Shown here one piece after another: positions 6,550 to 55,692 of a stretch of 64,000 nucleotides of DNA. Position 1 is the stretch's first letter; the number at the start of each line of letters is the position of its first letter. Made by a program: the position numbers and the translations under genes. The DNA comes from Bryum argenteum (Eukaryota > Streptophyta > Bryopsida > Bryales > Bryaceae), in the NCBI GenBank assembly GCA_037043015.1, contig CM073321.1, positions 34,574,101 through 34,638,100 of the forward strand, in the 5' to 3' direction. The notes beneath the pieces are model-generated. The model worked only from the letters and a program-made list of their open reading frames with translations. It was not told the origin of the DNA and did no database searches.

Positions 6550-6990
6550 CTATTTGGCGGCTACCAAATTTTGGCGGAAACATTGCTCGGTGGGGTTGTT
6601 GTCCCCACAATGGTGTGTTACCCCCGTTTGGTTTGGGCGGTGTAGGCCGGCTATGTGGTGGGACATACGAGCTTGGATTAAGTGGACTTGGGCAAAATCG
6701 GGGAGTATGACCAAATTGCCGGCAATTTGTGCACCAAAGGTTAGATGGGTGTACCCCGGTTTCACTTACAGGTGGTGGTGCATTCATGCTTTTAGCATTA
6801 ATGGCCATGGTCAATTGGTCCCCTAGAGACTTGATGGTGTTCATCATATCCACCTTAAGATCATCATTGGCCTTTTTTAAACCGTTCCTCCAATTCCACC
6901 AACCGGTCCACCTTAGGAGGTTCCGGTTGAGGGTGCCATTGAAGTTGAGGAGCCGGTGGCCTTGAATCAAGGGGGTTGGGTTGGATTATT
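6550..6990 (-). mobile_element. Partial second copy of the Ty3-type gag 3' region
   Basis: This stretch repeats the coiled segment and zinc-knuckle part of the adjacent gag at high identity, including the CTNCRQFGHTPRFC knuckle. It lacks part of the later Cys/His-rich region seen in the full copy and joins LTR-like DNA on its low-coordinate side. It is a fossil fragment, probably from local duplication of a Ty3-type element. Confidence 0.7.
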
Positions 6991-8886
6991 GGCCCGTTGT
7001 TGCCGTGTCCTGACCGCCACATGGTGTTCAACCGGTTCCCCCACTACCATAGCAACCACGGTGTCCACCTCCTCATGTATGATTAAATGCATACTTTGAT
7101 GTATAGGGGGGTGGGCCGTGTTTGGGATGACCCCCGTGGTCGAAGGACCACCAGGAGGTACAATGCTATTCCGGACGTCTTGGGAGACCATTGGGTTGGC
7201 GTATACCGCCGGCGGTTGAACACTAGGGGGGACCGGTTGCATCCCCATGTAATATTGGAGCGGGGGGTTACCTGGTCCCGCACCTTGGCTTTGGTCCGAC
7301 GGTGGTGGAACATAACTAGTAGTAGCCATTGGATACCATGGAGTCGAGTATGTTTGTAAAAGGTACCCTTGTGCCGGCTTATCATAGAAGAAGCCTTGGG
7401 TGGGGGTTGAGGAACTTGAAGCCCCCGGAACGGTTTCCGGCTTTGCCTTTTTTTGGCGGAAACACCGCTCAGTGGGGTGATTGTCCCCACAATTGTCACA
7501 CACCACGCCGGTCTCCACCCAACATTTTCCCGGACCAATGGGGTGAAATCGCCCACATGTAGGGCACGGTGTCCCCTTCGGTAATGGTGGATTACCCCCG
7601 GTTGGTTTGGGCGGTGTAGGCCGGTTATTGTGTGGGACATACGGGCTTGGATTAAGTGGACTTGGGCAAAATCGGGGAGTATGACCAAATTGCCGGCAAT
7701 TTGTGCACCAAAGGTTAGACGGGTGTACCCCGGTTTCACTTACAGGTGGTGGTGCATTCATGCTTTTAGCATTAATGGCCATGGTCAATTGGTCCCCTAG
7801 AGACTTGATGGTGTTCATTATATCCACCTTAAGATCATCATTGGCCTTTTTAAACCGTTCCTCCAATTCCACCAACCGGTCCACCTTAGGAGGTTCCGGT
7901 TGAGGGTGCCATTGAAGTTGAGGAGCCGGTGGCCTTGAATCAAGAGGGTTGGGTTGAACATAACCGGAGGTATATGGTGCCATAGGCCTAGATGGCTCCC
8001 CTGGGGTTTGACCCTCCCTATGAGGGGGTTCGTAGTGAGTGGGGATAAATGAAGGAACCGGGACCACCGATCGGGCCCACATTCGGTTATTCTCCTTCTC
8101 TATGCTCTCAACTCGGGTGGCAGCGGCTTGGGCATCACCCACCGTTTGGGGCATGGAGTTCAACACATCCCGGATTGTGGATTGTTTGTTGAATCCTTGG
8201 ATGAAGTAATACCGGATGGTGTCATCGGTCAAGTGGTTGCCCACGAACCTTGTTACCACCGTATTAAACCGGCTTATATACTCCGTGATCCCCTCGGTGG
8301 GCCCTTGCCTTATCTCCGTAAGAGCTACCAAGGCATTTTGTTGCCCCGTCTCGGGCCTAAATTGCCTCAAAAAGGCCGTTTGTATGGTCGGCCAATCCAC
8401 AAACGTTCTGGGGGCGTGTGAGCGGTACCACTTATATGCCGCCTTCTCTAAGGTGGTGGAAAACCAAACCAACCAATAGTCTTCTTCGGGAATGACATTG
8501 GTCACGAGGGTTTCAATATACCTCTCAATATGATTGGAGGGGCCCTCGTGAGCCATCCCGGAGAACTTCGGAAGGTGCATGGGCATACCCTGTGGCGCTA
8601 ACCCCATAGGCATCACTATTGGAAGCCCTCGTGGGGCCATCATTGCATCCGCCGGGTCAGGCGCAACCGGGGGTACCGGGGCGCCTGGGTTGAACGGTTG
8701 CGCCATGTAAATAGGACCAACTGGGAGCACCAGAACCGAGGAGTTTTCTACCTCTGAAGCCCCACCCTCCAAATCCTTGGGTTGGACTTGTTCTAATTGA
8801 CTGAATCTACTTTGGGCATCCCTTTGCCGTGGTAAGTCACGGTACAATCTTCCCCATTGAAGTGTTACCATTGGTGATTGCTCCAA
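6967..8886 (-). CDS. gag: Ty3-type retrotransposon Gag polyprotein
   Basis: An open frame of about 640 codons encodes a structural Gag. A low-complexity N-terminus leads into a retrotransposon-gag domain at about residues 100-250, with the characteristic W-Y segment (EKAAYKWYRSHAPRTFVDW) and the FLRQFRPETGQQNALVAL stretch. A short coiled segment follows near residue 340. Next come a CX2CX4HX4C zinc knuckle (CTNCRQFGHTPRFC) and two further Cys/His motifs (CPTC...H...C and CDNCGDNHPTERC). The tail is rich in Pro, Gly and Gln. Gag would bind RNA and assemble the particle. No protease, reverse transcriptase or integrase follows on this strand, so this is a gag-only remnant or a non-autonomous derivative. 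The frame looks whole over this length; the element as a whole is broken. Confidence 0.85.
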   Translation of the reverse strand: MEQSPMVTLQWGRLYRDLPRQRDAQSRFSQLEQVQPKDLEGGASEVENSSVLVLPVGPIYMAQPFNPGAPVPPVAPDPADAMMAPRGLPIVMPMGLAPQGMPMHLPKFSGMAHEGPSNHIERYIETLVTNVIPEEDYWLVWFSTTLEKAAYKWYRSHAPRTFVDWPTIQTAFLRQFRPETGQQNALVALTEIRQGPTEGITEYISRFNTVVTRFVGNHLTDDTIRYYFIQGFNKQSTIRDVLNSMPQTVGDAQAAATRVESIEKENNRMWARSVVPVPSFIPTHYEPPHREGQTPGEPSRPMAPYTSGYVQPNPLDSRPPAPQLQWHPQPEPPKVDRLVELEERFKKANDDLKVDIMNTIKSLGDQLTMAINAKSMNAPPPVSETGVHPSNLWCTNCRQFGHTPRFCPSPLNPSPYVPHNNRPTPPKPTGGNPPLPKGTPCPTCGRFHPIGPGKCWVETGVVCDNCGDNHPTERCFRQKKAKPETVPGASSSSTPTQGFFYDKPAQGYLLQTYSTPWYPMATTSYVPPPSDQSQGAGPGNPPLQYYMGMQPVPPSVQPPAVYANPMVSQDVRNSIVPPGGPSTTGVIPNTAHPPIHQSMHLIIHEEVDTVVAMVVGEPVEHHVAVRTRQQRANNPTQPP

Positions 8887-8992: not shown

Positions 8993-9013
8993 CAGAGTTA
9001 TCTTATTAGACAC
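8993..9013 (+). repeat. Left terminal inverted repeat
   Basis: CAGAGTTATCTTATTAG followed by ACAC pairs with 17596-17616 at 19 of 21 positions. A second imperfect inverted motif, GGACATGTCT...AGACGTCC, lies inside at about 9047-9068. Confidence 0.65.
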
Positions 9014-9195
9014 AATTTTTGGAATGTCTGTTTGATTTGTCGTATTGGACATGTCTGTTAGACGTCCAATCATGGAAATGTCGACCGTACCAAAAATTAC
9101 ATAGTAAAAAACTTGTTGAGATTTACCTTGAGGTGAAAAGCTATTTTCCTACGTGGCGTAGGGTTGATAATGACGTAGAAAATCAAAATACACAT

Positions 9196-9440
9196 CACAG
9201 TGGGCGACCGCGGGTGGGCGACCTCGCTAGGCGACCGACGGTGGCACAAGGGCGAACGTTGGTCGCCTGCTGCGATCGCCGATCGCCCTGGCTGCCGCGC
9301 GTAGGCGACCGGCGGTCCAGTATGGAGACCGGCGCTCGCCCTGGCAACCGCTACTAGGCGACCGCCGGTCCAGTACTGAGCGACCGACGATCGCCCAGGC
9401 CATGTGGCGATCGCTGGTCGCCTTGGGCACCGCGTGTGTG
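9196..9440 (+). repeat. Left subterminal GGCGACC repeat cluster
   Basis: About ten degenerate copies of GGCGACCGCCGGTCCAG, several reduced to GCGACC or CGATCGCC, lie about 200-450 bp from the left inverted repeat. The GC content is much higher than the DNA either side. The same motif recurs at 13240-13480 and 17148-17420. Confidence 0.8.
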
Positions 9441-9777
9441 GTGACCAGCACTATGGTTGAATATGAAACAAGAAAGATAAATTCATATTGGTACAAAATG
9501 AGCTTCAAAGCATGTTTATGAATACCTTTTTATCGGAAACAAGGTCAATGGTGCATTTCATAGTACAAATTTGTCCATGTCTATAATCATAGTATTCATA
9601 TATATGATGTAACTACATATACCGAACTATATATATTATACTCCGAAACATACTAGGATACCAAAATATTGTAAGCTAATAGTTGCCCTACTTGCAGTAC
9701 ATTGTAGTATTGTACTGAGTACTAACAATGAACTTCGTACTTCCAATCCAAAATAACAAAATTCTAATAACACGTCT
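9441..9777. other. AT-rich spacer 3' of the minus-strand gene
   Basis: No gene is seen. The sequence is AT-rich with several ATATAT-like runs and would include the 3' flank of the minus-strand gene that ends at 9778. Confidence 0.5.
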
Positions 9778-11287
9778 TTAGGTATCCTTCAATGTATACG
9801 TATTGTCGCTTGATACTTCATCTGCGTTTGGATTGGTTTCACCTAGAGACTCATCAGTGCTTTGGTCGCCATCCTCGTCTTCATCCTCTGTCTTATTGCG
9901 TACTTCACACTCAACCTCACTCGCCAAATTGCGCAATTCCGTGTCCGTAGTTGTTTTCTTGTTCACTGTAACGAGGCGCTTCAAGGGCCGTGAAGCATTA
10001 GTGATCCCGTTTGCGTTCAGTGGTAGATGTCGCATTGTACGTGTATTCGGATTATTGGATGAAGCAATCCCAGCATGGACTTCTTCATGTACGCGTACTC
10101 CTTTCCGACATCGTCAGTCGTGTGCCTTCCTCAAACGCTTCTGGCCTCGTGTAATACGATTGTGAGGTTGTGTAGATGGCCCGACGTCTCGTGCCACTGC
10201 CAATGCCCGGGTGCATGTTGGACTTGATGGTTCTATCTTGACCTCCATCTTCGGCAATACCATACGAGTTGTATGGGCCCCTTTAGGTTGGGTAACCCTT
10301 GGGAACAATTGTTGTAGAGGTACATGGGAGTCATCTCCGTTAAGAGTTGAATTCCTTGATCGAATGGTTGAAACTCTAGGTGACCCCACTTCCATGCAAC
10401 CTAAATTGGATACATCGTCAGGTTCCACTTTAATTTGGTCCATTTGAACTCCTGCCGTGGTAACCGTGCACTTCACACTCTCAAGTTTATCGTCGTTGTT
10501 AGAGTGTGGGCTGCCTTTAAGTGGACCAATGATACCTTCATCCATCCGGTTTACCAAGTCTTGTTTCGCTAGGCAGGTACTCTCTTGGAGTTGTAAATTT
10601 GCCACTCCTTCTCCTTCTGTGTCGCTGGCGAATACCGCAAACTCGCGAGTCAGTTGTGGAACATCCTGGTCCTCATCGAACTCAAACGGGTCCTTGACAT
10701 GAAAAGTCATGTTTCCTTCGTTGTCGTTCCAATTCTCTAGGTCGTCGTGTTCGCTACCGTCATTGACATAATTGTCGTCATCCGCCTCCGGATTATCCAT
10801 GAATACACCATCATCCCATTCATTGTCCGGTACATAGTCTTCTTCGTCAGAGTCTTCTTCTTCTACGTACCACGTTCTCGGCGATTTGGTACGTTTTTGG
10901 CGCTCGAGTTTGGCGTACATCCAGTAAATAGTCTAGAGCTTGAGATTGGTATCGTGGCCCCCAAGTAGACTCAGCATATTGACTTTCTTCCGAATCTTCC
11001 ATGGAGGCATGACCTTCACCGTCGGTTACTCTCTTCCCATATTGATTCCATCGATGTTCCATTGGATGGAGCCCCCTCTTGAATGTATTAGAGCTCACAT
11101 CAAAATAGCCTCCAACGCAAAGGAAGAAGATCATCCGATTACCCTCATGCTGTGAACCTTGTCCGGCAAGTATTGGTGCAACTCTTAGAATCTCGTTTGG
11201 GTCAGTCTCCCAATTCAATTGGGAGCTAGGCGTACTCTTCTCGAGATCATGTTCACCTCTACGCCAACTCCAAATAAGGTCTTTACT
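9778..11287 (-). pseudogene. Acidic C-terminal region of the RING-H2 gene
   Basis: This continues the frame of the RING segment. A short conserved-looking block (NWETDPNEILRVAPILAG, FFLCVGGYFDVSS) is followed by a highly acidic region rich in Glu, Asp and Asn (EEEDSDEEDYVPDNEWDD), then patches of Lys-Val-Glu-Pro and Lys-Ile-Glu-Pro (IKVEPDD, VKIEPSS). The latter resemble SUMO-acceptor sites of the psi-K-x-E type; that is an inference from motif only. One frame change near 10.92 kb and one in-frame TGA near 10.10 kb interrupt it. The end at 9778 is a normal stop. Composition suggests a nuclear protein. Confidence 0.5.
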
Positions 11288-12559
11288 CTAGAATCGAACC
11301 TCGTCATTAGTCTCAGCATTGTGTTCCCAAGAAGGCGGCATATAAGTTCTTAGATTGAACATCTCGTAAAACCGCTCGTGAAAAGGCGCTTTGCATATAG
11401 CACAACGACTTTGAGTCAAACAATGAACTAAAAGACACTGCGGATGATACATATGGACACATGAGCCTAAAGCCCATCCACCCTCAGGTCCAAATGGATT
11501 TAGGCATATGGGACACGTAGAGTGATCCAATACAAACTGCGGAGGGTTGGGCCACAATAATGTCTTGGATGCTACATCAACATGTGCCGACATGTGGTGT
11601 TTGAAATTCCACCCGGCCTTGCTCCAATCTACAACCTCTGTAGAACTGTCATCTTGCATCTTGATGTCCATCATAGGAAGATTATCAAACAATGTATCCA
11701 CACCGGGCCACGAAGTCATACCGAACGTTCGTCGACCAGCTCCACTAGTAAAATTCTTATCGATCTTCTCCAGCTCCGCTGCAACTTGTCTCCCTCTCTC
11801 CACCAAAAGTATACATGCCACCTTCCAATGGTAGTAAGTGGCTGACAACTGCTCCAAACGAGCTTGCAATTGTTGCTTTTCCTTTAGTAAGGAGTTGTAT
11901 CCATCAGAGGACATGAAATGGGGATTACGAACAGGGGGGAACAACGGTAAAGATAAAGAATCTTGAGAATCACTTCGTACATCTTCTTCTCGTTCGAGGC
12001 CCGACATATTAACAACACATGGCTGAGCTTTTACAGGATGGCGCAATATAGGGCGTTGCGGTGACATTTCTCCAAATGCCAAGTCCTCTGTAAGGTTGAA
12101 GACAACTCTATCAACATCCGCCATGTCAGATTTCTCTACATCTCCACGAATGTTACGTGCGTGAGATAGTTCTTGCATCTTCTCGCGCATGCGTGCATAT
12201 TCTACGCAAAATTGGTCCCCTTCTTTCACCTTCTCCTCATAAATTGCTCGTGTTTTTTCGAGATCCGCTTGCAATCTTGCTATGACGTCGTCTTTGCTCT
12301 TCAGAAGAGCTTTGAGATCAGAAGACGTGTCAAGTTCTTTCAATGGTAAGATGCAAGTACCATGGGGCTCTACTACGGGTGGATGATTACTTGCTATTGG
12401 AGGGCGAGAGCCACCTATTTCAGGAACGCGGCCAGGTAAATTACGACGATGATCCGCATCAATCACCTTATTTGGAGGGAGGAAGAGGTTGTTGTACTTG
12501 ACGCACCGCCTTACGAGGCCGCGAACCATCCGAGTCATCGTCCTCTTCCGATGTAGCAC
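11288..12559 (-). CDS. Coiled-coil and RING-H2 finger segment
   Basis: An open frame of about 420 codons. Residues about 85-135 form a charged heptad-like coil (LKALLKSKDDVIARLQADLE) and a second coil lies near residues 225-270. Near residues 350-395 is a RING-H2 finger: CPIC, then C-V-H-M-Y-H-P-Q-C, then CAIC, which matches the C-X2-C, C-X-H-X2-H-X2-C, C-X2-C pattern. The known role of such a domain is E3 ubiquitin ligation. The C-terminus (RTYMPPSWEHNAE) is distinctive but unknown to me. Translation continues in the same frame into the next segment after one in-frame TAG. Confidence 0.65.
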   Translation of the reverse strand: MLHRKRTMTRMVRGLVRRCVKYNNLFLPPNKVIDADHRRNLPGRVPEIGGSRPPIASNHPPVVEPHGTCILPLKELDTSSDLKALLKSKDDVIARLQADLEKTRAIYEEKVKEGDQFCVEYARMREKMQELSHARNIRGDVEKSDMADVDRVVFNLTEDLAFGEMSPQRPILRHPVKAQPCVVNMSGLEREEDVRSDSQDSLSLPLFPPVRNPHFMSSDGYNSLLKEKQQLQARLEQLSATYYHWKVACILLVERGRQVAAELEKIDKNFTSGAGRRTFGMTSWPGVDTLFDNLPMMDIKMQDDSSTEVVDWSKAGWNFKHHMSAHVDVASKTLLWPNPPQFVLDHSTCPICLNPFGPEGGWALGSCVHMYHPQCLLVHCLTQSRCAICKAPFHERFYEMFNLRTYMPPSWEHNAETNDEVRF

Positions 12560-13100
12560 TATGATAGGAAGCCTCTTCCATAGTCTTGGTAATAGACCTC
12601 GTCACTCCCATGCCACCATTAGGAGCGTCAGGGAATCTTAGAATGCCTGTCGGAATGTCACTCGTTGAAGGTCGTGTTACATGCTTCCCCTTTTTGACAG
12701 TTGTCCAATCCACTCGTATACCAAGAGCAACCTTGGCGTATACTCCACGAGCAAGAAACAATGGAACCTCGTTGCGCTCCACACATGGCATGCCATACAG
12801 GACTTGGTAAACCTCAATGCATCGTTGTTTGAAGTTTGGGCATTCGCAAAACTTAAGATTTGCCTTGTTGGTGCGCAGATGAAAATGGTGACGAGACAGA
12901 GGGAATTTCTTGTCAATGTGACACCATTCAATGAACGATTCACAAGTGGCCATCGTCCACATATCTGGTTCATCTTCCCAACCTCTGAAGGCAAGCTTAT
13001 TTGGATTTTGAAGCACGTGTAATCTTTTCCGTTGTGGAGCGCCCTTCCTCTTCCTCTTCTTGTCGTCCTCTTCCTTCCGAAGTTGCCCGAGAGTAGCCAT
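12468..13100 (-). CDS. N-terminal part of the RING-H2 gene, unknown domain
   Basis: The best start is the ATG at 13100, giving MATLGQLRKEEDDKKRKRKG, a lysine/arginine-rich nuclear-localisation-like stretch. A conserved-looking block of aromatic, Cys and His residues follows (WEDEPDMW, FIEWCHID, HHFHLRTNKANLKFCECP, RCIEVYQVLYGMPCVERNEV), then an acidic-serine linker. I do not recognise this domain. Paired Cys and His residues suggest metal binding but no standard finger spacing is seen. The frame moves to that of the next segment in the overlap at 12468-12559, by a short intron or by one frame change. Confidence 0.55.
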   Translation of the reverse strand: MATLGQLRKEEDDKKRKRKGAPQRKRLHVLQNPNKLAFRGWEDEPDMWTMATCESFIEWCHIDKKFPLSRHHFHLRTNKANLKFCECPNFKQRCIEVYQVLYGMPCVERNEVPLFLARGVYAKVALGIRVDWTTVKKGKHVTRPSTSDIPTGILRFPDAPNGGMGVTRSITKTMEEASYHSATSEEDDDSDGSRPRKAVRQVQQPLPPSK

Positions 13101-13239
13101 GGATGAAATAGCCAAAATGGCGAATAGTTATTACCTACCCGGAATGAGCATGCAGCCAATTTAATGGATGTAAGACAACGCGCCAGGCCAGTAAACCCAA
13201 ATAAGAAGTTCAGATACGATGGGGGAATATACAGGGCAA

Positions 13240-13480
13240 CCTCGCGCTGGGGCGACCACAAAATCAAGGCGACCGGCGGTCCAGATAGAGGTACGACGTT
13301 GCGTGGCGACTGGCGGTCCAGTGAGGGCGCGACTGCAGGTACAGCTGTCGCGACGCAGGAGGTGGGGCAACCGCCGGTGCAGCTGTTCACGACAGCGAGA
13401 GGTAGGGCGACCGCCGGTGCAGCTGTCGCGACAGCGGGACGTAGGGCGACCGGCGGTGGGCGACTGTAGGGCGACCGCCG
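13240..13480 (+). repeat. Central GGCGACC repeat cluster
   Basis: Degenerate copies of GGCGACCGCCGGTCCAG mixed with GTGCAGCTGTCGCGACAG blocks (three copies). It lies between the 5' ends of the two divergent genes and immediately upstream of a TATA box, so it may be a shared promoter region as well as an element repeat. Confidence 0.75.
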
Positions 13481-13491
13481 GTCTCCAGGGA

Positions 13492-13499
13492 TATATAAA
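13492..13499 (+). promoter_or_regulatory. TATA box, plus-strand promoter
   Basis: TATATAAA follows directly after the GC-rich repeat cluster and would start transcription at about 13525, toward the pseudokinase gene. The leader would then pass through 13.56-15.1 kb, so that stretch is either a long 5' UTR or intron, or a later insertion. Confidence 0.45.
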
Positions 13500-13561
13500 C
13501 CCCAACTCGCGGGTTTGATATTACTTTTCCCCAAACCGCTACCGAACTCTCATCCGCCCTG

Positions 13562-15110
13562 TGTCGCGACCCTAATTACTCCAACTCTTCTTTCTCTTAG
13601 TGAGCCTTACTTGGTAGCGGAATCACGGCTCACTTAGTTGGTAGCAATCGGCCACGACTTTGCTAACACTTGCATGTGCCCCACACACACAATGTTAGCA
13701 CCATTCTAAGTCAAGGTGTCCAACCCACCTTGACTCCATAACTCATTATCCGGTACTCATTACCCGGAACTCCCACCAACACATGGGTATGCCAACCCGG
13801 AACTCCCACCAACACATGGGCATGCCACTTGGTGGCACGGGGCGGCCTTCCACACATGTCCAAGCTCCCAAGGGTGCTACTAATCACCCCCGGAGCTAAC
13901 CGCCCTTATCCATTGTCCAACTTCCCACTAGTCCCCTTCCACTCTTGTTTCACACCCCATTCGGGACTTTGCCGTAAATCCTTCCGGAATCCGGCACTAG
14001 TTTTCCCGGGGACTAGTTTGGATCGGGACTCTTTCCAACCCAATGTTGCGGGATGCTCAAGAGCATCCCACAATGCCCAAGATGTAGAAGTGAAGCTTCC
14101 TTTCCATGCCTCACCTTCTTGAGCCATTCCCGGTCACTCCCGGGAACCGGCACTATTTATCACGGGGACTAACTTGGAGAGGGACACTTCCCAACCCCAT
14201 GTTTAGAGATGCTCCAAAGCACTCTCCATTTTCCACAAGGTGCGGGAGTGAGGCCCCATCCCAAGCCTCACCCCTTGGAGCCACCCCGGCTCCTCAAGGC
14301 ACCATGTGCAAGTGAGGAGGGAGACCACCCCTCCTCATAGTACTCTCTGGAGTCTTCGGTAGGCCCCCTCCTCTTGTGTTGAGGGGCCTTCCGTGACACA
14401 CTTTTGTTTTGGAAGACCACCCGTTTTTGCCTTAGTCTCAAAAACGGGCCGTATCTTCTTCTCGGGCTAACTTGTAGCTCAGTTATCCAAATGGGACGTG
14501 CGAGCCCATTTTCGACATCTGCTCTTCGAGTAGATGTCGATGGAGTCCTTACTTGTCCCAATCGGAGCTTCCATGTGGGAGCTATGCTCCTCTGAACATT
14601 CGGGAGTCCCGGGAGGCAGCAGTCCCGGAGTCCCGAAGTCCCGATGCTTTGGAGAGACATATCTCCCAAAGCATTGCTTTGCTCCTCACGAGCCTTAGCA
14701 TTTTGGAAAGCTCTTGTCTAGAGCTTTCCAAAGACATGCAACATGTCGCCATCCATGGGGGACGACATTTTGAGTCCCGAAAGGCAACACTCCCGAGTCC
14801 CGGAGTGTCCCGGAACGCGCTCCAACTTTGGAGAGCCATATCTCATGACTCACAACTCGAAATCGCGCGTTCTTTAGACCCATGGGTGCGTGCTCAAACA
14901 AGGTTTTCAACCATGTAAGACACGCCACCAAGTTCGTCCCAAGCACAACGCTATTGCGTGCTGTTTGCTCGGGACTCTCCTTGGTCTCCTCACCTTGTCT
15001 CTTGCCAAGCCCGGGACGTCACTCCCGGGGTCCTCTTGGCTCACCACGGTGTTCGGGCATCCTTTGGAAAGGGATGTGACACTGTGTCCTTGCTCGTCTT
15101 AATGATGCGC
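13562..15110. repeat. Hairpin-rich repetitive spacer, possibly inserted
   Basis: No gene is seen. The stretch starts TGTCGCGACC, an LTR-like start, but no matching end or flanking duplication was found. It contains a 156-bp-offset tandem duplication (CCGGCACTA at 13991 and 14147), two copies of AACTCCCACCAACACATGGG (about 13770-13820), many GTCCCGGAGTCCC words, and strong inverted repeats: GGAAAGCTCT...AGAGCTTTCC near 14706-14731 and ATGCTTTGGAGAGA with its complement near 14643-14673. It is tentatively an old non-coding repeat in the leader of the pseudokinase gene. Confidence 0.45.
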
Positions 15111-15200
15111 ACTGCCGGGTTGTCTGAGGAGTTTTTGAGGTTTGGTGCACATTGATAGCAGGGGGGAGATTTTCTGCCGGTTTTTTCAAGAAGTTCAACG

Positions 15201-16757
15201 ATGAGTAAATCCAAAAAGCATCAGGATGGACAACAAACATGGCATGTTGATGCCTCCGAAACATTTGCACCAGACCTTGGTATGCAACAACCTAGTGGAA
15301 GTGGAGGCCATAGGAGGAAGAGGAGACACCCAAAAGAAGTAGCTCCCGGATTCCCAACATCAGATTATACTAGGTTTGCGGAAAAAGCATGCTTGGATTG
15401 GTATGAGGAAACGGAGGCTCAATTCCTAGAGCACAACTACCTTAAGAATGTTAGCACGGGCAAAGGGAGATTGAAGAAGAAATTGGAGGCGGTAATTATG
15501 AAGGCCATGGCGGAATCCGAAGAATTCCAAGATGTGGATTATCATTCGCAGTACCAGTTGTGGATGGATAATACAATTGAACAATGCATCGTCAATGAAA
15601 AGGACTTGTGGAAGAAGCGATTTGGACAGAGGCGTCTAACACAAGAGGAGGACCAGTTTAAACGCAAGATGGATTGGTGGCGATTCTATGTCCAAAAGCT
15701 TAGCAAAAATAAAACCCGAGGGATGTCATGGGAAAAAACCGCTTTGCGCGCCACATTTGAACGAGACACAGGGTCGGGGGTGGTGTGGATTCCTCAAGAT
15801 GCTACGATAGAAGCTCTATCAGCCCGCGACATGGAGGGAGGCCATGGACTGGTGCGGAAGGTGAAGATTGTTGAAGTAGACCACGTTCCAAGTAATATCG
15901 AGTTTGCAGCAAAGCTTTCCAAGAATTTGAATATTCAAAAGAGGAGGATAGAGACTGTAGCAGAAGCTCTTGTATGTCCTTTGAATCATCCAGGAATTAT
16001 CAAGTTTTGGGCGTTGCATACAAGGACATTCGAAGCTTACTCATATTGGTGGAATGGAGGATCACTACACGAAATGTTGAAGTTGGATGAGAAGGTCGGC
16101 GACAAACATCTTCACTGGTCAAAAGTAAAGGAAGTTCCGAGTCTCACTCAAGAGGAGGCTTTCAGAATTAGCCTTTTCCGTGAGCACATGATGAAGTTAG
16201 CTTGGGGTTTAGTGTACATCATGAATCTGGTGCATAAGACAGGAGTACTTCGCAACAACCTATCCCCCTCGAACATACTATTGCATTTCCCAACTATCGG
16301 AGAAGACAAGATTTGTATTGGAGTGTGTGACTGGACGATGGCATTTCGTTTAGTAGAACAACAGCCTTCACGTTACGGATACCAGACGGAGAAGAAAAAA
16401 AAAGAAGATATGGCACGTCGATGGTGGGTGGCGCCCGAGATGTTCTATACTTATGGACCTGAAAGTTCTGATACAAATTTGAACGTCCAGGAACTTCGAC
16501 ATCAAACTACAGTAGCATCTGATTCGTATGCGGTTGGCAAGCTCATCCAACTGATTGGTGTGCAAAAGGAATTCGACGAAGAATTATTTCCGAATTCGAC
16601 GGTGCGATATTCATTCCTATCAAAAGTGTTATCACTGACCAGGCATGAATCGGAGAAGAGAATGACCTGTGGGGAGGTGGTGAACCGCTTGATGGGGAAA
16701 CCATTTCATATGCTTCCACCGGAGTCTGTATTTAGAGAGGACGGTTTTAGTTTATAA
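15201..16757 (+). CDS. Intronless pseudokinase
   Basis: A complete 518-residue frame begins at ATG 15201. Residues 1-50 are basic and disordered, and residues 55-180 are helical and charged with no known domain. Residues about 215-505 are protein-kinase-like: LNHPGIIKF (262-270), the catalytic-loop equivalent RNNLSPSNIL (351-360), a DFG-equivalent CDWT (376-379), an intact APE (411-413), and the C-lobe DSYAVG aspartate (441). The catalytic Asp of HRD is Asn, the loop Lys is Ser, and DFG keeps only its Asp. By known kinase chemistry it should lack phosphotransfer activity and could act as a scaffold or binding module. It is the only uninterrupted gene in the TIR-bounded segment, which hints at constraint or recent origin. 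Lack of introns fits a transposon-borne or retrocopied gene. The kinase subfamily is not identified. Confidence 0.8.
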   Translation: MSKSKKHQDGQQTWHVDASETFAPDLGMQQPSGSGGHRRKRRHPKEVAPGFPTSDYTRFAEKACLDWYEETEAQFLEHNYLKNVSTGKGRLKKKLEAVIMKAMAESEEFQDVDYHSQYQLWMDNTIEQCIVNEKDLWKKRFGQRRLTQEEDQFKRKMDWWRFYVQKLSKNKTRGMSWEKTALRATFERDTGSGVVWIPQDATIEALSARDMEGGHGLVRKVKIVEVDHVPSNIEFAAKLSKNLNIQKRRIETVAEALVCPLNHPGIIKFWALHTRTFEAYSYWWNGGSLHEMLKLDEKVGDKHLHWSKVKEVPSLTQEEAFRISLFREHMMKLAWGLVYIMNLVHKTGVLRNNLSPSNILLHFPTIGEDKICIGVCDWTMAFRLVEQQPSRYGYQTEKKKKEDMARRWWVAPEMFYTYGPESSDTNLNVQELRHQTTVASDSYAVGKLIQLIGVQKEFDEELFPNSTVRYSFLSKVLSLTRHESEKRMTCGEVVNRLMGKPFHMLPPESVFREDGFSL

Positions 16758-17147
16758 TATCAGTATATCTTCTTGCAATTCATAGACTCCTATGGATGAC
16801 CATCTCACGTCATTGAGTGCTCATTTAGCCATGTAATTCACAAATTATACTTGCAATATATACAATCTACTATTTGACATATTGTTCCAGTTCTAATAGA
16901 TTTTTGCAACTCTTATAATTATGTTCCCTTTTTACACTAGTCACATATGTATGTCACCACATTTTTTGTTACATGAGTTTCAAACCTCATGGTTGATGTT
17001 AGCCTTTTCTTCAGGGGTTCGTGGATTGTTGTAATTTGTTTCATCTTAAATTCTTAATGCTTCATCTACGTTTGTATAACGAGAATTTTGGGTAATGTTG
17101 GATAGCAAAATAACTTATTCTATTCGGGGGAAGCCTCCAATGCAAGG
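16758..17147. other. AT-rich 3' flank
   Basis: No gene is seen. This AT-rich sequence follows the pseudokinase stop and presumably contains its 3' UTR. Confidence 0.5.
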
Positions 17148-17420
17148 CGACCCTAGGCGACCACTGGTCCAGGGGCGAAAATAGGCGACCGCCGGTCAAG
17201 CGAGACCGCCGGTCCAGCGAGACCGCCGGTCGCCCTGGGCGATCGTCGGTGGCTCATGGGCGATCGTCGGTCGCTAAGGCGACCACCGGTCCAGAGAAGG
17301 CGACCGCCAGTCCAACCGAGGCGACCGCCGGTCTAGACGAGGCGACCGCCGGTCCAGAGAAGGCGACGGCCAGTCCAGCCGAGGCGACCGCCGGTCTAGA
17401 CGAGGCGACCGCCGGTCCAG
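17148..17420 (+). repeat. Right subterminal 21-bp GGCGACC repeats
   Basis: From 17278, about seven copies of a 21-bp unit GGCGACCGCCGGTCCAGAGA(A) run in tandem. They form a 63-bp higher-order period: the CCAGTCC, CCGGTCTAG and CCGGTCCAG variants recur in order twice. More degenerate copies precede them. The cluster ends about 175 bp from the right inverted repeat, mirroring the left cluster. Short ORFs through it (alternating TGPEKAT and TGLDEAT) are by-products of the 21-bp period. Confidence 0.85.
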
Positions 17421-17595
17421 TCCTACGTGGCGCAGTCGCGAACCGTATTGCTGAGTTGTATACATGACGTGGCAGCCACGTAGGATGCAACATGGACAGG
17501 GTAAATCAAGGGTAAAAAAAAGATTCTGTAGATTCTAGTAGACATTCTGAGGCTCAATATCTGTCAGACATGTCGTGTCTGTCTGACGTCCGACA

Positions 17596-17616
17596 GTGTC
17601 TAATAAGACAACCCTG
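17596..17616 (-). repeat. Right terminal inverted repeat
   Basis: GTGTCTAATAAGAC followed by AACCCTG is the complement of the left repeat with two differences. TGTCGTGTCTGTCTGACGTC just inside resembles the left subterminal words in shuffled order. Confidence 0.65.
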
Positions 17617-17937: not shown

Positions 17938-18572
17938 AAGCTCATTTAGCTCGAGTCGAGCTAAATGGAGCATCCACGTACAAATATGGCATATTTAACT
18001 AAATATGGACAGTCTGCAGTCTACAATTAAGAACAATAGTTGAAAATTGATTTCTAGAATCTAGGTTCTATGAAGATACTCTTTCAATATGTAGATTTTA
18101 AGGTCATGGATGGAGGGATCTCCCCTTGTTTTAAAGTCCACAAATAAGCCCAAAGTCCATATTTAGTGAATTGATGCATAAATGCTCCGAGTTCACGAAT
18201 TTGTCTAGTTGAACTATTCAGAGGAAGACCATTTAGCTCAACTCGAGCTAAATGGTCATCCACCTAAGTATAATTTGAGTTTCCTTGGGAGATGATTGTA
18301 GGAGGATCATTTAGCTCGAGTCGAGCAAAATGGTCATTAAGCTACAACTGCTTCGATGTGAGCGTGATGGACAGTTATCTTGATGACCATTTAGCTCGAC
18401 TCGAGCTAAATGGGCATCAGGATATTTGGTCATCAACAAACACCAAAGTATTTGTAAAAAGACGACTATTTAGCCTGACTGGAGCTAAACGGTCTTCCTT
18501 TTAGAAATGCTTCGAGGTTAGCGTGATGAACAAATATCTTCATGACCATTTAGCTCGAGTCGAGCTAAATGG
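17938..18572. repeat. Dispersed P1 palindromes at about 78-bp spacing
   Basis: Six copies of the P1 palindrome, arms CATTTAGCTCGA around one base, are centred near 17955, 18240, 18316, 18395, 18478 and 18555. The spacing is about 76-83 bp for the last five, not the 51 bp of the satellite, and the intervening linkers are different. Two linkers share TTAGCGTGATG(A/G)AC...ATCTT...TGACC, so part is a duplication of about 160 bp. This is the same palindrome in an unrelated sequence context. Confidence 0.85.
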
Positions 18573-18760
18573 CCATACAATTTCCTCAATGGTCATACAC
18601 ATTTCTGTTTGCAAGTATATTAATTTACCAGTGATTACTCATGATTGTGTGTTTATTGCTGGCATTCAGGTAATCATGGAATTGAGTGAATCCGATGGCG
18701 ACGGAGATTGTCAGCGTCTTTTTTCTGAGGTAGTGGATTTACTAATTCTATAATAGGAGT

Positions 18761-52833: not shown

Positions 52834-53695
52834 ATGGCAAACTCTCCCACCTATACCTCACAATTTCTTAGCGTACTTCAAGGCCAAGTTCCACTAGATT
52901 TTGGTTTTCAATCTTTCTCCTAGTGCCGTTTCCACACCTCCAAAGGTTCCTCGCCGCGAATGGAATGTTGATTCTACGGCTTGTTTGTTAGAATTGTACG
53001 AGGAGAGATATATTGCTAACAATAGGAATCCGATGGGCAGGGAAAAATTCATAGAAATTGCTGATATTTTGAATGTTTCTCACCCCATACATCCTGCTCG
53101 TACTCGTGATCAATGCAAGGCTAAGATGGAGAAGCTCAAAAAGAAGTTGAAGTCGGAGAACAAAGAGATGGGGCAGACGGGAGCGGCAACATCCAGTTGG
53201 GAATATTACGAAAAGATGCAAGCGATGTTTGGAAGCACCGCAAAGATGAGCGGTTTACCTGGAGGCATGGACAATGGCGCTTCTGCATCAAATTCGCGAG
53301 ACTCACTTCAACGACCGGTCCACATTAACCTTGAGGAGGATATTCCAACCCCTCAGTCTCCGACCCTACAGCCTCCGTCCCCTCGCAGTGCAGCTTGTTC
53401 TCGACTTGGCGTTTCTGGCAAGCCAAATGCCAAGCGCCGGAAGGTAACAGGAGATTCTGTACATGCAGCAAAATTAGCTGCTGAGTTTGCAAGATCTAAC
53501 GAGGTGGAGTGTACTAGGCAGGAGGCGCAGATTGCAGCTCAAGAGCGAGCGGACCGCCTTGTAGAGAGGATGTTGGACATGGAAGAGCGTCGTTCGCGAG
53601 AAGCCATGGCCTCCGAGGAGCGCCAAACAGAGAGGATTGTAAGCGGGCAGATTGAGATGGTTAAGCTTTTAGCTAGTATTTTACAGGCGAATTAA
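52834..53695 (+). pseudogene. Harbinger Myb/SANT-like (trihelix) DNA-binding protein
   Basis: ATG 52834 starts MANSPTYTSQFLSVLQGQVP and runs to TAG 52921. The main frame, one base off, is open from 52901 to 53695, so a single-base indel just before the TAG is likely. The domain starts VPRREWNVDSTACLLELYEE and continues RTRDQCKAKMEKLKKKLKSE, with the W-K-W spacing of Myb_DNA-bind_4. A Pro/Ser linker and a C-terminal coil (RADRLVERMLDMEERRSREA) follow. In this superfamily the protein helps import the transposase and bind the element ends. Confidence 0.75.
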
Positions 53696-53860
53696 GGAGA
53701 TCGCACTTAGTTACTATTACGTATGTTTTTATATCATATGTACATGTTCTATTTATACTTCCTAATTATTTATATCAATATATAGTATAGGAGTTTAGAT
53801 ATATATTACGTGAGGTATTATATGTTTGGTTTATAACGGACATATTATATTGTGTTTTTT

Positions 53861-53935
53861 ATATTATATATATATATTTTTTTTTATTATATTATATTAT
53901 ATTATATTATATTATATTATATTATACTTTTGATG
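53861..53935. repeat. TA and ATTAT microsatellites
   Basis: A TATATATATAT run is followed by about nine ATTAT units (53887-53931). The whole 53.7-54.3 kb interval is AT-rich and non-coding; a second TA run lies at 54298-54313. Confidence 0.9.
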
Positions 53936-54324
53936 TCATATTATTTATTTTTAAAGTTAATTTTACTTTATTACAAACCAAAATAAATTCTAAAATAGTA
54001 GAATAATAATTGGTAATATTTTGTTGCATATTATTATCTACGATATATGTTTATTTTCAAAGAACCTTAATTCACATATAGTTTTGAGTCTTAATAATTT
54101 TTGTATTTATTTTCATAAATATAATTTGAACTCCAATAACGTTTCAATACATTTAAAACACTAATAAGTTATAGTAATTTTTTTTTATGGAATTAGAAGT
54201 TTCATTGTACATTTTGGAAATTGTTTCATAAATTTACGTAAAATCAAATACAATAGCTATGTGAGTATAATAATAACGAATAAAAAACATAAACCGTATA
54301 TATATATATATAGGTACATGACTA

Positions 54325-55692
54325 TCATTCATTCCGTGGATGTCTGGCTAACCACGATGCAAATATAGCCTCTCTAACACGCTCTCGAGCAATCCTACCT
54401 GCATCATTGTCAAGTGGATGCTCGTACCCTGGAATCTGAGCATACTGTCTCTCTCCTATATCATACTCAGCTGGTTCGGGCATACCCTGCAACTGACAGA
54501 AGTTGTGCAATGCACAACAAGCTAAAATATACGATCCGGCTCTGTTCACCATAGGGGTGAACGATCTCAGAATTCTCCAACGGTTCTTTAGAGAACCAAA
54601 ACTGTTCTCTATCAGAACCCTTGCTACATTCATCGCAAAATCAAACATGTTCCGATCTACAGCCAACTAACTCCTCATCTTAAAATTCTTTAGTAAATAG
54701 GGACGAAGAGGGTAAGCTGAATCACCTAATAGGAAAGGTGAAACCTCCACTCCACCAATATCGAGCACAGGCTCCCTCAAAATCGTACCGGCCATCAACT
54801 TCACACCGAGAGAAGAATCTCGAAATGCAGCTGCATCATGCGCTCCACCAGGCTGATCACAGTACACATCCCAGAATAGCTTGTCAGCATCACAAACACC
54901 GTGCACAAGCACACAAAAGAACCTCTTCCGGTTAAAGAAGTCTCCCGGCGCTAGCGTAAGAGTAAGAAGACGTTTAGTGGCTAGAGGTACGTGGGTCCCA
55001 TCTATAACCCCACAAATCTGAGAAATGCCTGTCATAGCCTCAAACTCAGCGATAGTAGCAGCTAACCGAGCACCAGTTGGTATCTGAACGAAATGACCAT
55101 ATAACATGTCCTTTTGAGAAAGAATGTTACAAACTATGACCGTGTACTTGCGGATAGTAGACGCTCCTACGTTGTATAGATCAACCATGAGCTCCGGCCT
55201 TACTCTGTGTGCCAATCGATACAAAACTAACTTCAGAATCGTGCCTGGAGAGAGAGGTATATTATGAATATTCTGAATATGAGAGAGAGATCTAACAAAA
55301 TACGGCGAGAACTGCAAGAAAGGGGTAATCAAGGCAACTAAGTGCTCAAAAGCGACAAATGTCATCCTATATGACTATAAGTATTGCCTATCTAAGAATT
55401 CGGGTGAGGTAAACCAGACATCTCTTTCAATAACATCAGAATGAATATTCTGTCACGGAATCTTCCACCACATCCTCTCAGAATCATCTACCTCTCTAGG
55501 AAGTAACATAGACAAAAGCGGTAAACTCTAGTGCAAAATAGAACGGCCATCGGATAAACAAACTGGTCTGTGCAGAAGACAAGACCTAAAAGATCTAAAA
55601 TGCCTCGTGGCTCTACCCGGTCTAGGAACGGGGAAGAAAACGGATAATATGAGCCAAACGCCAAGAATCTGCGCTATCGTAAAGTCCGCCAT
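54325..55692 (-). pseudogene. PIF/Harbinger DDE transposase
   Basis: From ATG 55692 (MADFTIAQILGVWLILSVFF) one frame runs to 54325, about 455 codons, with four in-frame stops and no frame shift. The stops lie near 55529, 55457, 55376 and 54653. Catalytic residues are readable: Asp in QICGVIDGTHVPL, Asp in GGAHDAAAFRDSS, and Glu in VLIENSFGSLKNRW after the last stop. All four stops could come from single C-to-T or G-to-A changes, the pattern expected from deamination of methylated cytosine. The family cuts and pastes DNA; this copy cannot. Confidence 0.85.

Follow-up and report, generated by a model that had tools for sequence, protein, structure and literature searches.

hAT elements are usually pictured as small transposons with one gene; their terminal inverted repeats (TIRs) are short, with a consensus that starts CAGRG, and their transposases carry an N-terminal BED zinc finger. 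Ac of maize has a single transposase gene. In the sections of PMC3260210 cited here, Ac is described as a 4.6-kb element whose transposase binds a subterminal motif, and which is accompanied by internally deleted copies, Ds-del. A second comparison is offered by the VANDAL Mutator-like elements (MULEs) of Arabidopsis, in which the anti-silencing accessory protein VANC reads repeats, the motifs being fast-diverging tandem repeats in the element's own non-coding DNA (PMC10398659, PMC5735166); in elements that combine VANC with Ulp1 (KIU/Kaonashi), some accessory proteins carry an Ulp1 domain (PMC13317346). Here we analyzed the segment at positions 8993–17616 of a 64-kb stretch of Bryum argenteum DNA (C1:34574101-34638100), the whole of which we call the window. 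In a preliminary description, this segment had been interpreted as a large mobile element that has subterminal repeats and ends recalling hAT and that carries accessory genes of the ubiquitin and kinase types, and the copies found elsewhere in the genome bear this out. By its ends, target duplications and transposase, the family is a high-copy hAT, the longest form of which, among the copies read, is about 19.5 kb. The segment itself is very probably an internally deleted copy of this multi-gene hAT, whose accessory proteins would act through GGCGACC-type repeats. The element is thus more interesting than the window alone suggests, yet the window copy is a broken derivative of it.

Ends, copy number and target duplications

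The 21-bp ends of the window element lie about 8.6 kb apart and pair at 19 of 21 positions, as had been described. The window alone proves little, because chance would be expected to yield about 0.9 inverted 21-mer pairs with at least 19/21 matches in 64 kb if the base composition were even. When the 258.8-Mb genome was searched with the 21-bp end at up to two mismatches, 654 matches were detected (326 forward and 328 reverse), compared with 0 for the reversed-pattern control, and the end pair is therefore real. The ends fit the CAGRG start of hAT TIRs (CAGGGTTGTCTTATTAGACAC). The adjoining sequences are repeated as well: the left 121 bp had 39 further matches at 93–95% identity (E ≤ 2e-43; best 40 of 244 candidates scored), and the right 177 bp had 39 at 92–95% identity (E ≤ 2e-67; best 40 of 276 candidates scored). 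The first 100 exact ends among the 654, all of which were on C1, included 14 neighboring pairs facing inward within 35 kb and 5 facing away; the inward-facing pairs were spaced 4.1–32.9 kb apart, two of them at 19.4–19.7 kb.

We read 20 regions of about 10 kb and one more, and found both ends together at seven loci other than the window copy, of which six carry an 8-bp target duplication that is complete or matches at 7/8 positions. The refuting condition named in the preliminary description, the lack of any second locus with both ends, therefore does not apply. The duplication was perfect in five (L030, L031, L035, L047 and the joint locus L049/L032; sequences CTTTGGAG, GTACCAAC, CTTCACAA, GAGATGAG and CTCTAATA) and matched at 7/8 positions in L043. 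Six of the seven copies (L030, L031, L035, L041, L043 and L047) are non-autonomous copies of about 3.8–5.7 kb, with the family ends and without a recognized coding part; three of these six (L031, L035 and L047) also contain a 1.5-kb stretch from the middle of the full element.

A full-length copy with a hAT transposase

The longest copy read, C1:37014955-37034435 (L049 together with L032), spans 19,481 bp and is flanked by the duplication CTCTAATA. From the left, it contains six genes in the order transposase (−), W4 (−), W3 (−), W2 (+), W1-RING (−) and kinase (+), where W1–W4 are four related, paralogous proteins that share what we call the W domain, W1 being fused to a RING finger. Several of the six genes are interrupted in this copy, and its transposase is in several pieces. 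In its left part, Pfam models identified a hAT transposase (DUF659, 4e-39; Dimer_Tnp_hAT, 1.3e-6). In the full copy, the hAT domains are thus enclosed by a single pair of TIRs; the window copy has lost them. Transposase frames of 1,000–1,073 residues without stops were present in four rows of the transposase listing, the one of 1,073 residues lying around C7:18353–18370 kb.

The association of the genes extends beyond this copy. In the best 40 of the 95 transposase copies listed, a W1 gene was found on the expected side within 40 kb in 29, at a distance of 11.6–13.3 kb in 22 of these 29, and a kinase on the expected side in 13; wrong-side W1 and wrong-side kinase genes numbered 0 and 0. This pairing used 85 of the 152 W1 rows and 35 of the 86 kinase rows, the lower rows being hand-picked. 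The family is also enriched on C1, which makes up 17% of the genome and holds 30 of the 40 transposase copies and 58 of the 85 W1 rows; C1 may be a repeat-rich or a sex chromosome. Elsewhere in the assembly, contig C12 carries a RuBisCO large-subunit frame of 505 residues, which points to a probably photosynthetic source.

The segment had been described as having no known transposase. This holds for the window copy, apart from a C-terminal tail of the enzyme, and fails for the family: it is a trait of the window copy, because the full copy encodes a hAT transposase, the core of which is deleted here. The domain at 12.5–13.1 kb, proposed earlier as a possible mobility protein, is not that protein, and its candidacy as a transposase was rejected when the hAT transposase was found in the full copy.

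Structure and losses of the window copy

The features of the window copy, in window coordinates, are as follows.

8993–9013, plus strand: left TIR, CAGAGTTATCTTATTAGACAC.
9203–9422, plus strand: left subterminal GGCGACC cluster, with 5 motifs forward and 2 reverse.
10114–10920, minus strand: acidic tail from the C terminus of the hAT transposase and the sole part of that enzyme found in this copy; the same protein sequence as the L049 tail that comes after the DUF659 and dimerization parts.
10847–11134, minus strand: 3' portion of the W1-RING gene, truncated by the deletion; the same sequence occurs in the 786-residue frame of L036.
10915/10916, no strand: junction of the internal deletion; about 12.2 kb of the parent is gone, by arithmetic from the aligned coordinates.
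11288–12538, minus strand: RING-H2 part of the W1-RING gene, separated from the W part by a frame break (zf-RING_2 at 1.5e-5, under the cut-off); L036 and L044 have both parts in a single frame.
12468–13100, minus strand: W domain, the N-terminal part of the W1-RING protein; no Pfam relative, best PDB E value 2.9, at least 152 genome matches.
13251–13476, plus strand: GGCGACC cluster in the interval that separates the divergently oriented genes for W1-RING and the kinase, with 5 motifs forward and 0 reverse.
13566–15081, plus strand: later insertion of about 1.5 kb, a high-copy repeat resembling a long terminal repeat, flanked by ctgtgtc and not present at the corresponding position in the long copies read.
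15201–16757, plus strand: accessory protein kinase gene whose frame is open but reads HNN and DWT at the catalytic positions (PF00069 at 4.3e-6, under the cut-off); at least 86 matches.
17146–17423, plus strand: right subterminal GGCGACC cluster, partly a 21-bp tandem array, with 9 motifs forward and 1 reverse.
17596–17616, minus strand: right TIR, reverse complement CAGGGTTGTCTTATTAGACAC.

Window positions 9304–10916 are 93% identical to positions 758–2409 of L049, and the deletion that follows removes nearly all of the transposase. No other copy spanning the 10915/10916 junction was found among 39 other scored matches (best 40 of 261 candidates). Where long copies extend to this region, window 10915–13565, or part of it, runs straight into 15082 onward. 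The repeat at 13566–15081 has 38 further near-full copies at 95–97% identity among those scored, and some of its copies form same-strand pairs 6–13 kb apart. The two divergent gene blocks of the preliminary description were recovered. The 12.5–13.1-kb domain and the RING, which it named separately, are split in the window and form one protein in L036 and L044.

The left flank of the window copy matched only itself among the best 40 candidates scored. The right flank is a repeat: of 38 other scored matches, 37 begin at query positions 194–200 and the remaining one at 208, and every one of them extends to 400. A search with the joined flanks found no continuous match that would represent an empty site, and none was present among the loci read. 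The absent duplication of the window copy may possibly be explained by recombination between two copies or by loss of one flank.

W-domain proteins and the W1-RING fusion

The W domain comprises about 110 residues with the pattern GW...YIxWCHIxKLFP..RH..H...N.ANL..C...F..RCIEV...LY...EV...VYAE..L...VDW. Apart from the RING, scanning of the W proteins found no Pfam family above its cut-off; an NCBIfam scan found nothing near a cut-off; the sequence comparison of the W domain with PDB found no relative, and of 15 pattern matches in viral contigs, 0 were confirmed as W relatives. Structure prediction gave a predicted local distance difference test score (pLDDT) of 37.3 for W1 alone, and of 48.7 with two sequences for the W domain, the latter model being helical and too weak for a structural search.

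The W and RING parts form one 786-residue frame in L036 and L044, and ten of the matches listed contain W1-RING frames of at least 786 residues without stops. The window gene has a frame break separating W from RING, and its end is lost to the deletion. The RING-H2 gene of the preliminary description was upheld: the window open reading frame (ORF) scores 25.6 bits against a zf-RING_2 cut-off of 27.3, the relative in L047 scores 29.3, above the cut-off, and all eight Cys/His zinc ligands are present in the alignment of the window, L036, L053 and L047 sequences. Against PDB, the RING sequence matched RING finger protein 24 at 5e-5. In eight W1-RING rows, the ratio of synonymous to nonsynonymous changes was 19:22 for shared substitutions versus 85:186 for singletons, so the shared substitutions give a hint of constraint.

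Kinase gene

The window kinase has HNN at the catalytic loop and DWT at the DxG site. In 11 other kinase copies read, HND was present in 10, DWG in 9 and AAK in 10, and a stop lay inside the DWG motif in 2. The earlier label of pseudokinase is therefore apt for the window copy, which lacks the catalytic Asp, and probably wrong for the family, in which this residue is kept in 10 of the 11 other copies read. Pseudokinase as a family trait was rejected on this count, though those copies are interrupted. The kinase stretch of L033 exceeds both Pfam kinase cut-offs, and five further rows of the kinase listing cover nearly the whole protein without stops; a sequence search of PDB found no match at E ≤ 0.01. 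Synonymous to nonsynonymous changes were 36:71 for shared substitutions versus 78:221 for singletons (12 rows), which points weakly to constraint. Judged from these residues, it is plausible that the family encodes a predicted kinase whose catalytic residues have been lost in the window copy. The window copy alone could possibly be a maintained pseudokinase, its frame being open.

W-RING genes in other lineages

The W-RING gene is kept in three diverged lineages, namely the window family, L053 and L047. L053 is a GTDB record (CADCWO010000051.1) labeled as an uncultured cyanobacterium, and contains an intact W-RING frame of 814 residues that is 42% identical to the family over 745 aligned residues; the two differ at 46, 40 and 66% of codon positions 1, 2 and 3. 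Because this contig encodes a W-RING of the hAT kind, it is probably a eukaryotic contaminant. L047 contains a further divergent W-RING gene, with one stop, whose family has 112 scored loci. For 43 of 150 hAT dimerization hits, a W gene of the L047 family was convergent at 3.3–5.2 kb; the other three arrangements of W and hAT occurred 0 times within 8 kb, and about 0.5 convergent neighbors were expected by chance. The W gene, with a RING where it was read, thus seems to recur in this genome as the second gene of hAT elements, and the spacing suggests that in this second family the W gene and the hAT transposase lie inside one TIR pair.

Copies of the window family are also found nested in each other or in their kin. 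At L035 (2451–8182), a short copy lies within the kinase gene of a long copy, with the duplication CTTCACAA; at L010 (823–1002 and 1501), a family copy adjoins a W-type gene fragment; and at L047 (3648–8348), a short copy is located at the 3' end of the second-family W-RING gene.

GGCGACC-type arrays

Within the 64 kb, 23 of the 27 occurrences of GGCGACC/GGTCGCC fall inside the element, and 22 of these 23 are in the clusters at 9203–9422, 13251–13476 and 17146–17410, the remaining one being at 9864. The clusters had been described as near both ends and central, which is correct, and as being in the same orientation, which the strand counts listed above show to be nearly right. In the full copy, motif arrays lie inside both ends and upstream of genes, including the transposase. 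Here, five promoter windows of 450 bp contain 23 of the 30 interior motifs, a count attained in 168 of 18,280 circular shifts; the promoter window of the transposase rests on an estimated start. We also examined 32 recognizable W1, W2, W3, W4 and kinase starts from 14 loci, and all 32 had 3–12 motif cores within the 450 bp before the start, compared with 0 in the 450 bp that follow it; the background elsewhere in the window is 0.2 cores per 450 bp.

Each of the three W-RING lineages has its own GC-rich repeats about 140–440 bp upstream of the start. In L053, this is a tandem array with a 21-bp period at about 210–390 bp, and in L047 there are tandem arrays with 14- and 41-bp periods at about 220–420 bp from the presumed start. 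Different arrays in a similar place would be as expected from co-evolution of a binding protein and its site.

Neighboring sequences in the window

Directly left of the element, at 6967–8871 (−), there is a Ty3-type gag ORF (Retrotrans_gag, 3.3e-13). To the right of the element, at 17940–18580, several near-perfect palindromes of the type CATTTAGCTCGAGTCGAGCTAAATGG were seen by eye. ORFs at 52898–55374 resemble, by eye only, a PIF/Harbinger gene pair (a trihelix-like protein and a DDE nuclease).

Proposed mechanism and alternatives

In the mechanism proposed here, the hAT transposase would cut at the 21-bp ends, helped by the subterminal arrays as in Ac, and leave 8-bp duplications; deleted copies such as the window copy would be, or would formerly have been, mobile in trans. 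With less certainty, one or more element proteins, for which the W proteins are candidates, may bind the GGCGACC-type motif at gene starts, and this would activate the element's own genes or shield them from silencing. W1-RING would then bring ubiquitin-ligase activity to the arrays or remove a host silencing factor, and the kinase would adjust this machinery. We tentatively suggest that this is a hAT lineage with its own repeat-guided regulation, in which W proteins, one of them RING-fused, read fast-evolving GC-rich arrays at ends and gene starts and thereby counter silencing or coordinate expression, making it a convergent counterpart of VANC and VANC-Ulp1; we regard this as possible, at clearly less than an even chance.

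Several observations weigh against our main reading, the deleted multi-gene hAT with the mechanism proposed for it. The gene starts represent five gene types rather than 32 independent cases, because the copies are closely related, and one motif cluster of the full copy, at about 7.9–8.06 kb, is not upstream of any recognized gene. The RING of L053 scores 15.4, below the Pfam cut-off of 27.3, and a scan of the N-terminal Cys-x2-Cys piece of the transposase found no Pfam match. Many copies of the W1-RING, kinase and transposase genes contain stops; stops interrupt 10 of the 11 other kinase copies read, and every one of the 11 has frame-breaking indels relative to the window frame, which is open. 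W2 is without constraint, with synonymous to nonsynonymous changes of 12:59 for shared substitutions versus 62:147 for singletons (8 rows). Constraint among copies is weak at best, and the copies sampled are mostly decayed. Finally, the 8-bp flanks of the window copy, as had been reported, and those of L041 do not match.

The alternative that survives best is that the arrays at gene starts serve the transposase only, as extra binding sites or for autoregulation, and that W-RING and the kinase act elsewhere, e.g., in host repair or the cell cycle. Since the Ac transposase binds its own subterminal motif (PMC3260210), one DNA-binding protein could explain all of the arrays, and the array of the full copy that is not at a recognized gene start fits this. 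However, arrays lie upstream of every accessory gene tested, and in the two other lineages W-RING is preceded, about as far upstream, by arrays that differ in sequence, suggesting that the arrays are linked to this gene. We consider this alternative a serious contender, if somewhat short of an even chance.

It is unlikely that the accessory genes are passive cargo, i.e., captured host genes that hitchhike and decay. Singleton substitutions that look neutral, the stops and frameshifts of many copies and the unconstrained W2 are what such cargo would show, but the W gene keeps one orientation next to other hAT hits, a second organism retains W-RING with the greatest divergence at third codon positions, and long W1-RING frames without stops persist among the matches listed. 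Still less probable is a frozen composite in which smaller hATs are nested or fused into the 19.5-kb form and the inner arrays are old termini. The inner arrays do resemble the subterminal ones, and nested insertions exist in the family (L035 and L047), but no inner copy of the end was present at up to 3 mismatches in L032 or up to 4 in L049, a result that also speaks against the composite of two transposons considered earlier, and the inner arrays sit at gene starts. That the W domain is a new mobility enzyme is hardly credible: it is a domain without known relatives and has several copies per element, but the hAT transposase of the full copy accounts for the ends and duplications, and the domain has only about 110 residues and four paralogues in one element.

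Comparison with known systems

A 19.5-kb hAT with six genes, hundreds of ends, W-RING, a kinase and shared arrays would mean that multi-gene regulatory kits can arise in hATs as well, and the family supplies defined proteins and DNA sites for testing this. A search of open-access literature, with Repbase and subscription papers outside its range, turned up no hAT described as carrying W-RING or kinase genes. As an oversized element with accessory genes, it resembles the giant eukaryotic transposons reviewed in PMC6431247; by term search, the word hAT has 0 occurrences in the main text of that review. Like Ac/Ds, as described in PMC3260210, it has a hAT transposase, 8-bp duplications, subterminal motif arrays and internally deleted non-autonomous copies. 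In contrast to Ac/Ds, it is 19.5 kb long, has five more genes and carries arrays upstream of each accessory gene tested. With VANDAL and VANC, as far as these are described in the cited sections (PMC10398659, PMC5735166, PMC13317346), it shares the combination of a DNA transposon with an accessory protein, tandem motifs in non-coding DNA and a fusion to a ubiquitin-like pathway, the binding of the arrays being predicted here from their position. It differs from them in belonging to another superfamily and in having a RING fusion; W is set beside VANC by description, and homology between the two is not claimed.

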